Assembly (NCBI GenBank): GCA_947499255.1
Contig: CANMNF010000001.1
Coordinates: forward strand, 1,178,001-1,242,000
Length of the DNA: 64,000 nt
From: an uncultured Sphingomonadaceae bacterium
GTDB lineage: Bacteria > Pseudomonadota > Alphaproteobacteria > Sphingomonadales > Sphingomonadaceae
Direction of reading: 5' to 3'
The notes below the pieces were generated by a model. That model searched no databases and was not told where the DNA came from. It saw nothing but the letters and a program-made list of their open reading frames with translations. Numbering within the stretch: position 1 is the stretch's first letter; the number at the start of each line of letters is the position of its first letter. The position numbers were made by a program, and so were the translations under genes. This document shows positions 29,613 through 34,329 of the stretch, one piece after another.

Positions 29613-30839
29613 TTGCGCAAATTCCTCTACACAATCGTTGTTGGCATCTTCCTTGTTGCAGCAGTGCTGTTTGCGCTGCGCCTATACGGGGAAGAGCTGA
29701 CGCAGGCCGCGCTTGTTCCTGATGCGGAATTTGCCCCGCAGGATGCGCTTGCCACCAATGCCTATCAAGATCCGGCGATGTGGTTCAGCCGACCCGGCAT
29801 TGGCGCGATCAACGATCCTGCGCGTTGGCAACCATCGGCAATGGAGCTGACGCAGGCTGGGCCAGTTCGAACCGGGGAGGCGCAAGCTGAAGAGACGCCC
29901 TCACCCCAGCCAACCCCCGATATTGAGCAGCCCGCAGAGGAGGCCACGCAGGCACCAGACTTCGCAGTATTCTTCGTGCACCCCACCAGCTTTCTGGATG
30001 GCAGCAAATGGAATGCCCCGCTTGATGATCAACAATCGCAAGACCGCGCCCGCCTTATGGTGCGCGGCATGGCGAGCGCTTTTAATCAGGCGAGTGAAAT
30101 CTGGGTGCCACGATATCGTCAGGCGACATTCGGCGCATTCCTGACTGATTTGCCCGAAGCGCAGCAGGCCATCGATGCAGCCTATGCCGATATCGAACAA
30201 GCTTTTGATTTCTTCGTCAATTCCGTTCCTGCTGACCGCCCGATTGTGCTTGCCGGACATAGCCAAGGCGCTTTGCATGTCATGCGCTTGTTAGAACAAC
30301 GCGTGACGCGCAGCGATCTGGCGAGCCGCGTTGTCATGGCATACCCCATTGGCTGGCCGATATCGCTGGAACATGATTTGCCCAGCCTTGGGATGCCCGC
30401 TTGCGCGGCGGCTGATCAAGCGGGCTGCATTGTCGGCTGGGCCAGCTTTGCCGAGCCTGCTGATCCCGGCATGTTCCTGAGCCGCTATGAAACAACCGCT
30501 GGCCTTGATGGTCAAATTCGCGGGGAAAGCCCGATCCTGTGCGTCAATCCGATCAGCGGCGTCTTGAACGATACCGCCAGCATGAACCGCAATCTGGGCA
30601 CTTTGGTGCCCGAAGATGATTTGACCGGCGGTGAGCTGATTGCAGGCGCGGTTCCAGCGCGGTGCAATGCAGCGGGCTTGCTGCTGGTCGGCAATCCGCC
30701 GCAATTGGGGCCATATGTGTTCCCCGGCAACAATTATCACGTCTACGATATCCCTTTGTTCTGGAAGAATTTGCAGGAGGATGTGACGCGCCGCATTGGC
30801 GTTTGGACTTCTGCCCAAGGAACTGTGCCGCGTGGCTGA
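29613..30839 (+). CDS. DUF3089 lipase-like protein
   Basis: 408 residues. An N-terminal hydrophobic segment (about 4-24) suggests membrane anchoring or export. The hydrolase core shows VFFVHPTSFLDGSKWNAP, then LAGHSQGALHVMRLL with the nucleophile serine in GHSQG, and a likely histidine in NNYHVYDIPLFWKN near the end. This is the DUF3089 pattern, an alpha/beta-hydrolase group of unknown substrate. The start is TTG 29613 with GGGAGAGAG upstream. A 45-residue Glu/Pro/Ala-rich linker lies between anchor and core. The end overlaps the ruvX start by eight bases. Confidence 0.82.
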   Translation: MRKFLYTIVVGIFLVAAVLFALRLYGEELTQAALVPDAEFAPQDALATNAYQDPAMWFSRPGIGAINDPARWQPSAMELTQAGPVRTGEAQAEETPSPQPTPDIEQPAEEATQAPDFAVFFVHPTSFLDGSKWNAPLDDQQSQDRARLMVRGMASAFNQASEIWVPRYRQATFGAFLTDLPEAQQAIDAAYADIEQAFDFFVNSVPADRPIVLAGHSQGALHVMRLLEQRVTRSDLASRVVMAYPIGWPISLEHDLPSLGMPACAAADQAGCIVGWASFAEPADPGMFLSRYETTAGLDGQIRGESPILCVNPISGVLNDTASMNRNLGTLVPEDDLTGGELIAGAVPARCNAAGLLLVGNPPQLGPYVFPGNNYHVYDIPLFWKNLQEDVTRRIGVWTSAQGTVPRG

Positions 30840-31326
30840 AGCGGGCCAAAAAGCCGGACTGGTGACAGAGGAGGCAGGCCAGTTTCGCGATAGTCTGCCC
30901 GATGGCGGCGCGCTTTTGGGGCTGGACCTTGGGACCAAAACCATCGGGATCGCTTTATGCGATGCGGGATGGCGCTTTGCCACGGCGGGCAATACTTTGC
31001 CCAAAGCCAAATTCTCCCGCGACAAGGCCAGCATTGAAGAAATCTGCAAGTCGCGCAATGTGGCGGGCATTGTTATCGGCCTGCCGCTCAATATGGATGG
31101 CAGTGCAGGCCCGCGCGTTCAGGCCAGCCGCGCCTTTGCCCGCAATCTTGCGGTATTGGGATTGCCAATCCTGTTATGGGATGAACGCTGGTCAACAGCT
31201 GCGGCAGAACGCGATATGATCGCCATGGATACCAGCCGCGCATCGCGCGCACAGAAAATCGATAGCCATGCAGCCGCCGTAATCTTGCAAGGCGCGATTG
31301 ATCGGCTGGCTGGCGGGATCTTGTAA
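30832..31326 (+). CDS. ruvX: Putative pre-16S rRNA nuclease / Holliday-junction resolvase-like (YqgF)
   Basis: 164 residues, RNase H-like fold. The family start GALLGLDLGTKTIGIALCD holds the first catalytic aspartate, GIVIGLPLNMDGSAGPR follows, and LLWDERWSTAAAE plus KIDSHAAAVILQ hold the other acidic residues. YqgF finishes the 5' end of 16S rRNA in E. coli; its name RuvX reflects an earlier prediction. The start GTG 30832 overlaps the upstream gene by eight bases. The N-terminus has about 28 extra residues before the core compared with E. coli YqgF. Confidence 0.9.
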   Translation: MAEAGQKAGLVTEEAGQFRDSLPDGGALLGLDLGTKTIGIALCDAGWRFATAGNTLPKAKFSRDKASIEEICKSRNVAGIVIGLPLNMDGSAGPRVQASRAFARNLAVLGLPILLWDERWSTAAAERDMIAMDTSRASRAQKIDSHAAAVILQGAIDRLAGGIL

Positions 31327-31387: not shown

Positions 31388-32293
31388 TTAAACCACTTCC
31401 AATTCAATAGCTGCGCGGTGGCGCCTGGCCTCTGCTGCAATAAGCTTGCTGGCCGAGCTTTCCGCCCGGCGCCACAATTCATCGCGCTCTGCCATGCCCA
31501 GCACACCGGCCTGCGCTTCAAGAGCGGTTAAGCGCATGCGCTCACTCACATGGTTTTTGGCGAAATCGAACGCCAGATCGCGGGCATTGGGGCAGCCAAG
31601 TCCAACAGCTGCACGCAGAAACACTTCGGAGGCACCCGGGCTCAAAACCGCTTCGATAGTGTCTTTGGCGACGTCGAACCGGTATTGATCGAGCCACCCT
31701 TGCGCCCCGCCAGCATGCATGATGTTCAACGAAACTGAGAGGCTTTCAGGTGGCAATTGCGAATGCACATCAAGACTGGCGCGGTAATGCATGATTTTGC
31801 CGGGATCGAGCGTTGAGCGTTCAACAAAACGCAAGCCCGCCTTCTCACCAATCGCACCTGCGACCGCTTCATAATCATACTCGTAATAATCGCTGGAATA
31901 TCCCGGCCCGAAATAACCAAGGGTCAGGAAATCGAAATTGTGATCATGCGGCAATTCATAGGAGAAGGCCGATGCGCCGCTGGCCCGAAACATATGCTCG
32001 CCTGCACTGGGCCAAAAATTCGCGCGCATGAAAAATTCGCCTCCCAGCGGCGAAAGCATCACAACCTGCGCTCCGTAAGAGCTGGCCTCTTCCGCTGATT
32101 TCACGCCCTGTTTCAGTTCTGCAAGCAACATATCGCCCAGAAACTCACGATCATTGCCCAATTGGCGCAGCCACCGCGCACCGTTCTGCAAACTTTGTTC
32201 ATCGCGCGGGTCAAAGCCATCGTCTTTGAGGCCCTGCACACATTCTTCCAGCGTGCAGACCGTATCATCGGGCACTTCGATTATGCGCGGCAT
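31388..32293 (-). CDS. Cupin-like protein with an intact H-x-H site and a helical C-terminus, next to a peptide gene
   Basis: 301 residues. I do not know a named family. Residues 1-70 look helical; 75-200 look like a beta-barrel of cupin type. The barrel holds LPHDHNFDF (H116, H118, D121), and TLDPGKIMHYRASLDVH (H169, H177) resembles the second cupin motif (P-x-G-x2-H). These could bind one metal ion such as Fe(II), so an oxygenase or similar reaction is possible. Residues 205-297 are helix pairs in the HEAT-repeat style (for example AFDFAKNHVSERMRLTALEA). The start ATG 32293 has GGAGAG seven bases upstream and overlaps the preceding gene by 13 bases. With its distant paralogue and the small peptide gene upstream, it is a candidate RiPP-modifying enzyme. 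Confidence 0.8.
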   Translation of the reverse strand: MPRIIEVPDDTVCTLEECVQGLKDDGFDPRDEQSLQNGARWLRQLGNDREFLGDMLLAELKQGVKSAEEASSYGAQVVMLSPLGGEFFMRANFWPSAGEHMFRASGASAFSYELPHDHNFDFLTLGYFGPGYSSDYYEYDYEAVAGAIGEKAGLRFVERSTLDPGKIMHYRASLDVHSQLPPESLSVSLNIMHAGGAQGWLDQYRFDVAKDTIEAVLSPGASEVFLRAAVGLGCPNARDLAFDFAKNHVSERMRLTALEAQAGVLGMAERDELWRRAESSASKLIAAEARRHRAAIELEVV

Positions 32294-33249
32294 AATGTTC
32301 TCTCCAAATCGGCAAGTTGCGGATAGGTTTCAAGCAGCTGCGCCCGCAGCGCCGCGGCGTCGCTGAAAAGAGGATCGGCAGGCGAACGGGCAAGCTGACA
32401 TAAGGCGGCAAATCCTTTGGCAGTATCCATACCAAGACATTCGCGCAGCGCCTGCCAGCGCAGCGAAACATCGCCATCACCTGTCGCTATCGATGCCAGC
32501 TGAGGAGCCGCATCTGTGCGTTTCATGCGTCCCAACAATGCGATGATCGCCTCCAGCCTGCTGGTCGCGAGATTGCCTGCGCTTTGCTGCATCAACACGC
32601 CGGTATCGGTGCAAAATTCTTTCGTCGTCTCTGGTGTCTGCGCAGATCGAACAAGCCGCAAGGTGACCATTCGCCGATGCACCCGATCAACTTCAAGGCT
32701 CTGGTTCAAAAGGTCGAGCGAGAGGCGTGATCCGGGTCGTAGTGCAAGCGCCTCATGCGTGAAATGTCCTGATGCACCATCGCCTTTATGCAGGTGGAAA
32801 AGGCGCGCTTCACCAGCTCCTCCCAACACGGCATCATAGCGTACCCCATCGCTAAAAACTCGGCTCTTATGCGCGTAATCACCCGGGTCACGCGATTCCA
32901 AAAGCAATTGCGCGCGTCCAGAACGGGACAGCAGCGTAGTACCGGTGCGACCATCAAATCCATTGCGAAAAGGCGCCTGAGCAAAGCGGTTGGCTTTAAA
33001 GCAAGCGCACATGCGCTGTGACAGATCACCGATCAGATGTTCAGCTTTGCCAGATTGCATGAACATGCCTTCCAACACCCCGCCTTGGGTCAAAGGTGCG
33101 CCGCCACCAAACTCTTCAAGTTCGCGCAACATCGTTGCGCCAGCTTCATCCTCACGCCAGCCCATCCAGGCTGTATGAACCGCTTTTTGCGCACTGCGCT
33201 GCGGAGCCCGATTGCTCCGCAGCGCTGCGATATCTTTATCGATATGCAT
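32281..33249 (-). CDS. Second cupin-like/HEAT-like protein, without the H-x-H site
   Basis: 322 residues from ATG 33249, 19 bases after the stop of the peptide gene. It has the same layout as the next protein: a helical start, a beta-rich centre (about 100-205) and a helical C-terminus with clear HEAT-like units (LEAIIALLGRMKRTDAAPQL and VSLRWQALRECLGMD). The strand before the expected metal site reads VLGGAGEARLFHLHKGDG, so the H-D-H of the partner is replaced and only later histidines are present. LALRPGSRLSLDLL resembles a metal-free second cupin motif. It is probably a distant paralogue that lost the usual site, perhaps a peptide-binding partner. A TTG start at 33300 would overlap the peptide gene and lacks a good ribosome site. 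Confidence 0.78.
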   Translation of the reverse strand: MHIDKDIAALRSNRAPQRSAQKAVHTAWMGWREDEAGATMLRELEEFGGGAPLTQGGVLEGMFMQSGKAEHLIGDLSQRMCACFKANRFAQAPFRNGFDGRTGTTLLSRSGRAQLLLESRDPGDYAHKSRVFSDGVRYDAVLGGAGEARLFHLHKGDGASGHFTHEALALRPGSRLSLDLLNQSLEVDRVHRRMVTLRLVRSAQTPETTKEFCTDTGVLMQQSAGNLATSRLEAIIALLGRMKRTDAAPQLASIATGDGDVSLRWQALRECLGMDTAKGFAALCQLARSPADPLFSDAAALRAQLLETYPQLADLERTLCRA

Positions 33250-33268
33250 AATTTTACCGATCCGCCGC

Positions 33269-33436
33269 TTAGCAGGGGCCGCCGCAACCTTCGTAAACAA
33301 TACTGGCGATCACGATGATCGAACTGTTTTGGCCCGTGCGCATAGAACCGTACATACCAATCAATTGAGCCAGGTCAGGCAGGATTGTGGGGTCAATTTG
33401 AGGTAGGGATGTGAGATCAAATTTCGGCAAGTCCAT
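33269..33436 (-). CDS. 55-residue peptide ending CGGPC; candidate RiPP precursor
   Basis: The product starts MDLPKFDLTSLPQIDPTILP, continues with DLAQLIGMYGSMRTGQNSS and a hydrophobic stretch IIVIASIVY (40-48), and ends EGCGGPC. Residues 1-30 are acidic, Leu/Pro-rich and leader-like; the two cysteines (C51, C55) are the only ones and lie at the very end. The start ATG 33436 has a perfect GGAGGA six bases upstream, the strongest ribosome site that I noted in the window; an upstream extension to 33484 has none. The stop is 19 bases before the cupin-like gene. It lacks a signal peptide. The precursor role is inferred from size, leader-like part, ribosome site and neighbours. Confidence 0.75.
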   Translation of the reverse strand: MDLPKFDLTSLPQIDPTILPDLAQLIGMYGSMRTGQNSSIIVIASIVYEGCGGPC

Positions 33437-33441
33437 GATTA

Positions 33442-33447
33442 TCCTCC
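33442..33447 (-). promoter_or_regulatory. Very strong Shine-Dalgarno of the peptide gene
   Basis: On the minus strand GGAGGA lies here, six bases (TAATCC-side spacing ATAATC-type) before ATG 33436. It decides the start of the 55-residue peptide and suggests high expression relative to the two downstream genes, whose ribosome sites are weaker. The upstream 33448-33546 is AT-rich compared with the surroundings and probably holds the promoter; I cannot place -35 and -10 boxes securely. Confidence 0.8.
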
Positions 33448-33546: not shown

Positions 33547-34329
33547 TTATTTTCCGACACGCAAAAACACCACTACCCCGCTTCCCGGCACATCGTCTTT
33601 GCCCAATTCCAATCGCGCCGCATCCGCCCGGGCGCGGTTGAGAATTTCAGGTGTGATTGCACGGTCAGCAATGATCGCATCCGCCGTTCCCAAAAGCCGC
33701 GCTTGCCGGATCGTCAGATCTTCTGGGTCCTGGCTGGTGAGAGTGAATTCGTGCACCTCGTTCTTGCCAGGAGCATCCGCGCCGTCCAGCCAATCACCAA
33801 TGCGTGATGCGCTGCCTTCGCCCAGCACATCGAGCGGGCCGCCCTGCCCCAATGCGATATCGAGGGCCTGCCGGCGCTGGCTCATCATGGGAAAGCGCGC
33901 TTTGATTGCATCGCGCCCTTTCGCAAGCCCGCTGGCCAGCATGCCCAGATCTGCTGGTAACAAGCCTTCGAGCCGCAGCCGCAATTGCTTGGCCAGCCCG
34001 GCAGAAGCGCCGCTTGTGCCAACGGCAATCAGAACGGGATCGCGTTCCAGCAGGCTGGGCGTCGTAAAATCGCACAGCTCGGGGCGATCCACCACATTGA
34101 CCAACAGCCCTGCACACCGTGCACGGATCGCATCACCTTCGCACATGGCCGCATCATCATGCGCGATAAAGGCAAGGCGCGCGCCTTCATCGATGCCTTC
34201 CTGCATATCGGGCACCACGCGCCCACCGGCACGCGCAACCAAGCGCTGTTTTGGCTCCGCTGCATCTCCCTCCCCCAACACGATTACCGGCTGACCGGCG
34301 ATACGATGATACAGAGGCAGTGAGCGCAT
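33547..34329 (-). CDS. Siroheme-synthase-like protein with a truncated methyltransferase remnant
   Basis: 260 residues. The N-terminal part resembles precorrin-2 dehydrogenase/ferrochelatase (CysG-N/Met8): SLPLYHRIAGQPVIVLGEGD is the NAD-binding strand-turn-helix, RLAFIAHDD and LLVNVVDRPELCDFTTPSLL follow, then VLIAVGTSGASAGLAKQLR. The last 65 residues (EVHEFTLTSQDPEDLTIRQA, then DAIIADRAITPEILNRARAD) match the start of uroporphyrinogen-III methyltransferase but stop after about 65 residues instead of 240, and the G-x-G-x-G of its SAM site reads TLTSQDP. It should therefore lack the methyltransferase activity. The start overlaps the lysA stop by one base (TAATG). Confidence 0.82.
   Translation of the reverse strand: MRSLPLYHRIAGQPVIVLGEGDAAEPKQRLVARAGGRVVPDMQEGIDEGARLAFIAHDDAAMCEGDAIRARCAGLLVNVVDRPELCDFTTPSLLERDPVLIAVGTSGASAGLAKQLRLRLEGLLPADLGMLASGLAKGRDAIKARFPMMSQRRQALDIALGQGGPLDVLGEGSASRIGDWLDGADAPGKNEVHEFTLTSQDPEDLTIRQARLLGTADAIIADRAITPEILNRARADAARLELGKDDVPGSGVVVFLRVGK

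Follow-up and report, generated by a model that had tools for sequence, protein, structure and literature searches.

Introduction

Pyrroloquinoline quinone (PQQ) and mycofactocin each derive from a single conserved short precursor that is kept clade-wide with its enzymes, which are radical S-adenosylmethionine (SAM) enzymes with PqqD-like partners. Here we describe a trio of genes in which one conserved precursor-like peptide likewise stands beside enzyme-like proteins, found in a 64,000-nucleotide stretch (the window) of an uncultured Sphingomonadaceae bacterium (assembly GCA_947499255.1, contig CANMNF010000001.1, positions 1,178,001 to 1,242,000). A gene for a 55-amino-acid (aa) peptide is followed on the same strand by genes for two homologous proteins, B and A. 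In contrast to the PQQ and mycofactocin systems, neither A, B nor the peptide has a profile match to a radical SAM enzyme or a PqqD-like partner. The trio is probably a maturation cassette for a ribosomal peptide, in which A would modify the peptide, while B, which lacks the metal site, would pair with A and hold or present it.

Other described systems share some of these features. PbsQ is described as a JmjC-related, cupin-like hydroxylase of a biphenomycin-like pathway for a ribosomally synthesised and post-translationally modified peptide (RiPP); it works alongside an MNIO, an arginase and a B12 radical SAM enzyme of the same cluster (PMC12257519). PbsQ is thus a cupin-fold protein of a ribosomal peptide pathway, as we propose for A, but the A-B pair has a thiol-dioxygenase fold and the trio lacks the MNIO, arginase and B12 radical SAM enzyme of the PbsQ cluster (PMC12257519). 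In the open literature, PbsQ, a protein of another kind, was the only cupin protein found in a RiPP pathway (PMC12257519), and no paper listed in searches of the open-licence PMC literature was seen to link the cysteine/thiol-dioxygenase fold to RiPPs. For daptide clusters, the enzymes named are an aminotransferase, an alcohol dehydrogenase and a methyltransferase, together with a protein that recognises the leader (PMC10036551). Hydrophobic cores, several precursors per cluster and multi-component ATP-binding cassette (ABC) transporters are points of likeness, whereas A and B are not of the daptide enzyme kinds by profile or fold (PMC10036551). Compared with cysteine dioxygenase (CDO), 3-mercaptopropionate dioxygenase and the ADO-PCO proteins, A differs in its HEAT-like C-terminal domain, in the metal-less homologue alongside it and in its linkage to a peptide gene.

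The peptide gene is kept with the A-B pair

The cassette is widespread, and in Sphingomonadaceae the peptide is kept with the pair in nearly all loci tested. Wider DNA was drawn from 60 regions (59 in other genomes) and the best 80 named loci, and 165 loci (L002-L026 and L055-L194, L055 being the window) representing 142 distinct A genes were used; left out were L001 (the same gene as L055), L027-L029 (fragments), L030-L054 (short flanks) and L195 onward (copies or distant loci). B lies directly upstream of A in 140 of the 142, and in the remaining two A starts at a contig end. Excluding two loci with B cut off and two with less than 250 nucleotides (nt) upstream (L140 and L177) left 138 in which the peptide could be sought. 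A peptide model built from 18 close relatives matched upstream of B in 114 of these, and iteration raised the number to 120. The 18 training peptides are part of that total; of the 120 loci outside training, 102 gave a match. Among 14,431 small open reading frames (ORFs) in the 142 loci the model had no match other than upstream of B, which argues that the peptide is not a chance reading frame. A shorter or more divergent peptide is visible by eye in 16 of the 18 loci missed by the model, and none is visible by eye in L151 and L156. Homologues of the pair thus do carry the small neighbouring peptide, whose lack in most genomes the original prediction had named as the outcome that would count against it. 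ORF clustering across 60 loci found no other partner gene as constant as B, the next in frequency being two thioesterase-like families (described below) and housekeeping genes.

The best named relatives of A belong to Aurantiacibacter and Alteraurantiacibacter. Of 61 genomes searched as relatives (a set that contains the window's own), 27 have A, and every one of these is among the 37 of the window's genus; in the order, A is present in 99 of 296 genomes, all in the window's family (two of them by weak matches that are short, with E above 0.001). In one species-level genome collection, 415 of 441 pattern-matched stretches encode a relative of A (two patterns were used, and one gene may count twice). 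A separate search that scored a capped set of candidates gave at least 3711 matches, among which there may be remote paralogues. The A gene carries an in-frame stop in three genomes of the order, and in genome G011 a long contig holds just the C-terminal third of A (L027), a fragment that suggests decay of the cassette in some lineages. Since it is also absent from some genomes, A is common but dispensable.

Architecture of the peptide family

The peptides have a shared layout consisting of MNLPKIDLSSLPDLDTLTGLFGS, a variable linker, DDTIVVIMVYVYE and a short variable tail. Mean column identity over 121 peptides is 0.73 in the first 24 model columns, 0.26 in the linker and 0.56 in the hydrophobic block (columns 33-45), in keeping with the leader-like part originally proposed: the N-terminal segment is the most conserved, leader-like in its behaviour and putatively cleaved. 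Purifying selection acts on the peptide codons, with a median ratio of nonsynonymous to synonymous change (pN/pS) of 0.41 over 153 pairs and 0.50 for the window peptide against the others. The window peptide is single-copy in its own genome; the sole other match, rejected as a second copy, has an E-value of 0.66 and lies in a frame that looks TonB receptor-like by eye.

The window peptide is atypical in its GCGGPC tail and an extra 'LPQIDPTI' stretch, the tail in 18 aligned close relatives being mostly PP..GL/I-F/I. When the 121 model-found peptides are combined with 16 added by eye, a matter of judgement, 119 of the 137 Sphingomonadaceae peptides have no Cys; it is present in 18, in a few of these solely in over-extended N-termini. 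A close Cys pair occurs in just two, the window peptide and that of Aurantiacibacter rhizosphaerae (L122). The CGGPC tail, which the original prediction had placed at its centre, is therefore local variation and not the key feature of the family.

A and B are homologous thiol-dioxygenase-fold proteins, one with and one without a predicted metal site

AlphaFold models of A and B (predicted local distance difference test scores of 90 and 93) both consist of helices, a beta barrel and further helices, which bears out the common layout of helical start, barrel core and HEAT-like end read earlier from the translations. The cupin barrel is preceded by N-terminal helices as in CDO, a member of the thiol dioxygenase superfamily, and the fold of A matches both PCO/ADO and CDO. 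H116 and H118 are invariant in 37 A proteins, the same columns are invariant in a wider set of 42, and H177 is invariant in both alignments; in a profile alignment these three align with the histidines of cysteine dioxygenases. An alignment of the A and B profiles places Y, A and L at these positions in B, so that the three-His site exists in A only, as the H-D-H and later His of one protein and their loss from its partner had suggested. A is a plausible metal enzyme, with B as its metal-less paralogue, and the earlier label of 'cupin-like' can be sharpened to cysteine/thiol-dioxygenase-like.

A Ser-His-Tyr triad is typical of CDO. A instead has S188, N190 and M192 at the triad positions, and has no match to Pfam CDO_I (PF05995) at E up to 1; one of four CDO-family proteins compared (L252) likewise has Asn at the position of the triad His. 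The profile libraries scanned gave no family for the peptide, A or B beyond HEAT repeats. The expectation that no known RiPP enzyme would be present held for the trio, which has no Pfam or NCBIfam match to YcaO, LanM, radical SAM or MNIO at E up to 1, and by eye only for the window neighbours. Several public records, including P0022, P0049 and P0314, name A a transposase, an assignment that neither fold nor profile supports; the label is a misannotation that has spread through the public records of the family.

Some distant cassettes carry related peptides and ABC genes

Beyond the window's family A is rare, being found in 6 of 385 genomes of the class, 15 of 398 of the phylum (13 of which belong to the window's family), 3 of 96 of the order to which the alphaproteobacterial genome carrying L199 belongs, and 2 of 303 of the class that includes G905. 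A search with the A protein of L199 returned 165 proteins, and the 120 matches listed include Rhizomicrobium, Niveispirillum, Chromobacterium, Lysobacter, Nocardioides and Planctomycetota. A protein matching the B profile lies directly upstream of A in 14 of 17 distant loci, a set that includes near-duplicates (L236/L248/L249, L250/L251 and L238/L240); upstream of A, L224 and L240 instead have an ORF of 228-250 aa without a match, and the B gene of L249 is in fragments.

Pfam identifies ABC genes beside three of these cassettes. In L223, which lies on a plasmid of Alteromonas stellipolaris, the genes run HlyD-like protein, ABC ATPase, MacB-type permease, two small ORFs, B, A, ABC ATPase and ABC-2 permease, and the best NCBIfam matches of the ATPase after A include drug-resistance, bacteriocin-export and lantibiotic-protection ATPases, all below cut-off. 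L237, from another class of the phylum (family f201, at a guess perhaps Lysobacteraceae), has a MacB-type ATPase and permease, three tandem peptides, B, A and an ABC ATPase. L248 has A, a 39-aa peptide, an unmatched membrane-like protein and an ABC ATPase, and L236 begins with the same order. In the Sphingomonadaceae, by contrast, a motif scan known to overlook certain true ATPases (the second in L223 is one) found an ABC-ATPase-like ORF in only 1 of 110 loci of at least 12 kb. The original statement that no transporter accompanies the system thus stands, to the reach of that scan, for the window's lineage and fails for several distant relatives.

The peptide itself connects the Sphingomonadaceae and L237 groups, since a model built solely from Sphingomonadaceae peptides ranks the three L237 peptides at the top of 2,139 small ORFs (E 5.4e-5, 2.8e-4 and 1.5e-3). 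The N-terminal motif is common to both groups and the L237 core is different, two of the three diverged peptides sharing the core GGVCVxVGxxAGVxIN. Similar sequences were noted in the peptides of L102 and L092 and in a small ORF of the Alteromonas plasmid. The other distant peptides were chosen by eye, the model giving E 0.07 for L236/L248 and no match at E up to 1 for the rest. Core types differ strongly among cassettes (DDxIVVI, GxxCxxGII, GMPCG), with a core Cys in several distant peptides and none in others.

Further features were observed at single loci. L238 and L240 have a shorter A/B-like pair (which in L238 is itself a second copy) and adenylate-cyclase-like ORFs nearby by eye, and L238 also encodes a 63-aa ORF with a repeated STxFIFAA motif, as in multi-core precursors. 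In L203, from a Rhizomicrobium-like genome, a gene that looks CoA-ligase-like is convergent with A. The peptide there differs in its C-terminus, GGYDPISGMPCG..., which resembles that of the L205 peptide. An ORF resembling JmjC hydroxylases by eye lies about 2 kb upstream of A in L241. Carriage as phage or plasmid cargo was considered and rejected, relatives being unconfirmed in viral contigs (query A1) or phages (query P0324) and found in two plasmid records; a defence system was likewise set aside, A, B and the peptide having no PADLOC match.

Organisation of the window locus

The three genes lie where they had been predicted (Table 1), with a 19-nt gap between peptide and B and a 13-nt overlap between B and A. 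The trio is flanked by a ruvX-like gene on the opposite strand (30796-31326) and a cysG-like gene on the same strand (33547-34329), both named from their translations. No RNA element was found at the locus at the Rfam gathering score, and a scan of the locus for promoters and terminators gave no more than in shuffled sequence. Two families resembling hot-dog thioesterases by eye, divergent from the cassette and about 1.7-2.2 kb upstream of A, occur in 26 and 22 of 60 loci (L055-L114), and none was seen beside the window trio; these recurring genes, together with housekeeping neighbours, are read as a shared chromosomal position.

Table 1. Features of the peptide-B-A locus (positions in the window).
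Feature	Position	Strand	Basis or remark
Gene for 55-aa precursor-like peptide	33436..33269	-	Iterated family model, E 1.3e-15 (window peptide included in model)
Gene B, 322 aa, ATG start	33249..32281	-	Thiol-dioxygenase-fold pseudoenzyme, HEAT-like C-terminus
Gene A, 301 aa	32293..31388	-	Thiol-dioxygenase-fold protein, intact 3-His site, HEAT-like C-terminus
GGAGG ribosome-binding site, 7 nt 5' of peptide ATG	33443..33447	-	Direct reading of the letters
Peptide residues 1-31, conserved N-terminal leader-like segment, consensus MNLPKIDLSSLPDLDTLTGLFGS	33344..33436	-	Column identity, 121 peptides
Peptide residues 40-48, IIVIASIVY, conserved hydrophobic block, candidate core	33293..33319	-	Model columns 33-45
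Peptide residues 50-55, GCGGPC tail, variable among relatives	33272..33289	-	Paired Cys in 2/137 peptides
A H116-D117-H118, predicted metal ligands	31940..31948	-	H116 and H118 invariant, 37 A proteins
A H177, predicted third metal ligand (DxH)	31763..31765	-	Invariant; aligned with third His of cysteine dioxygenases
A C-terminal HEAT-like helices, residues 221-300	31394..31633	-	Helices in predicted model

Discussion

A short precursor gene clustered with modifying-type enzymes is characteristic of RiPP loci, and this is what was found in 120 of 138 loci, with an enzyme-like metal site in A. In the mechanism we favour, the peptide would be a precursor whose conserved N-terminal segment serves for recognition and whose C-terminal part is hydrophobic. 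The A-B pair would recognise the N-terminal segment, with B helping to bind or position the peptide, and the metal site of A, probably a mononuclear three-His Fe/O2 enzyme with a cysteine/thiol-dioxygenase fold and a HEAT-like tail, would oxidise something in the hydrophobic part. Gene order, conservation, the homology of A and B, the folds of the models, the conserved ligands and the ABC genes of some relatives are observed, and from there we infer the identity of the metal, the modification, its site and the role of B. Since most of the peptides have no Cys, thiol oxidation is probably not the general modification; a different side chain, or the C-terminus, is the likelier target of oxidation. 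The ABC transporter genes and multiple precursors of some clusters give them, by analogy, the look of RiPP clusters. In the window's lineage, where no clustered exporter was seen, the product may act intracellularly or exit by an unlinked route, and together with the conserved core this points to a single defined product whose role would be internal or housekeeping.

Several points weigh against peptide maturation. Modification is a prediction, and an unmodified subunit peptide would give the same gene order. In sequence, A resembles cysteine dioxygenases weakly: hhalign gives a probability of 40 (E 3e-4) for the wide alignment and of 4.8 (E 0.008) for that of Sphingomonadaceae. Export or protease genes are common, though not universal, in RiPP clusters; no protease was recognised beside the trio, though no search was aimed at proteases, and no exporter in the window's lineage. 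The presumed core is fairly conserved within Sphingomonadaceae, unlike in many RiPPs. Among the distant loci, L224, L239 and L241 have no convincing peptide, and the contigs of L204 and L249 are too short to judge.

The main alternative is that the peptide stays unmodified and serves as a small subunit of an enzyme or sensor formed by A and B, for instance as a beta strand completing the barrel or controlling access to the site. A would then act on a small molecule, a thiol for example. In favour are the conserved, strand-like nature of the hydrophobic block and the oxidation of small thiols by known members of the fold (among the structures listed), and the motif scan saw no ABC ATPase in 109 of the 110 Sphingomonadaceae-type loci. 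A subunit would, however, be unusual in occurring as three tandem diverged peptides per A-B pair (L237), as two small ORFs in Alteromonas and beside ABC genes at several distant cassettes, and strongly different core types speak against it; we consider this chief alternative unlikely, though worth keeping in view. A toxic or bacteriocin-like hydrophobic peptide that A and B neutralise or escort would suit the Gly-rich hydrophobic cores and ABC systems of L223 and L237, and the below-cut-off NCBIfam resemblance of the Alteromonas ATPase after A to resistance, bacteriocin and lantibiotic ATPases. Yet the single peptide, conserved at its N-terminus, persists across a family that shows no visible exporter, binding would not require an invariant metal site, and PADLOC recognises none of the three components; we consider a toxin improbable. 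Slightly less probable still is that A is a peptidyl-cysteine dioxygenase oxidising a Cys of the peptide, as plant cysteine oxidases do at an N-terminal Cys: the PCO/ADO and CDO fold match and the Cys in the window tail and in the peptides of L223, L236, L237 and L203 (picked by eye or found by model) fit such an activity, but its substrate residue would be present in at most 18 of 137 Sphingomonadaceae peptides while the A site is invariant, and the Ser-His-Tyr triad of CDO is lost.

Maturation of the peptide by the A-B pair remains the reading we prefer, and we class the locus as RiPP-like, with an enzyme family not linked to such systems before, and not as a proven RiPP class. What survives of the new system first proposed is the linkage of peptide and pair, including a homologous peptide with the pair in another class, the plausible metal enzyme with its metal-less paralogue, the lack of a match to known RiPP enzyme families and the leader-like N-terminal segment; the CGGPC tail does not, and tail modification by A with leader binding by B stays a prediction. 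More tentatively, and at somewhat less than even confidence, a HEAT-fused branch of the thiol-dioxygenase fold, with its dead copy, may oxidise non-thiol residues in hydrophobic ribosomal peptides and so constitute a new RiPP class. Relatives such as Alteromonas would export bacteriocin-like products, whereas Sphingomonadaceae would retain theirs as a stable endogenous compound that may be a signal or cofactor. If the maturation reading holds, a protein that is widely spread, and currently unnamed or misnamed in public records, would bring a new enzyme fold to RiPP biosynthesis and provide a natural pair of enzyme and pseudoenzyme acting jointly on a peptide, and a large hidden set of peptides would become searchable.
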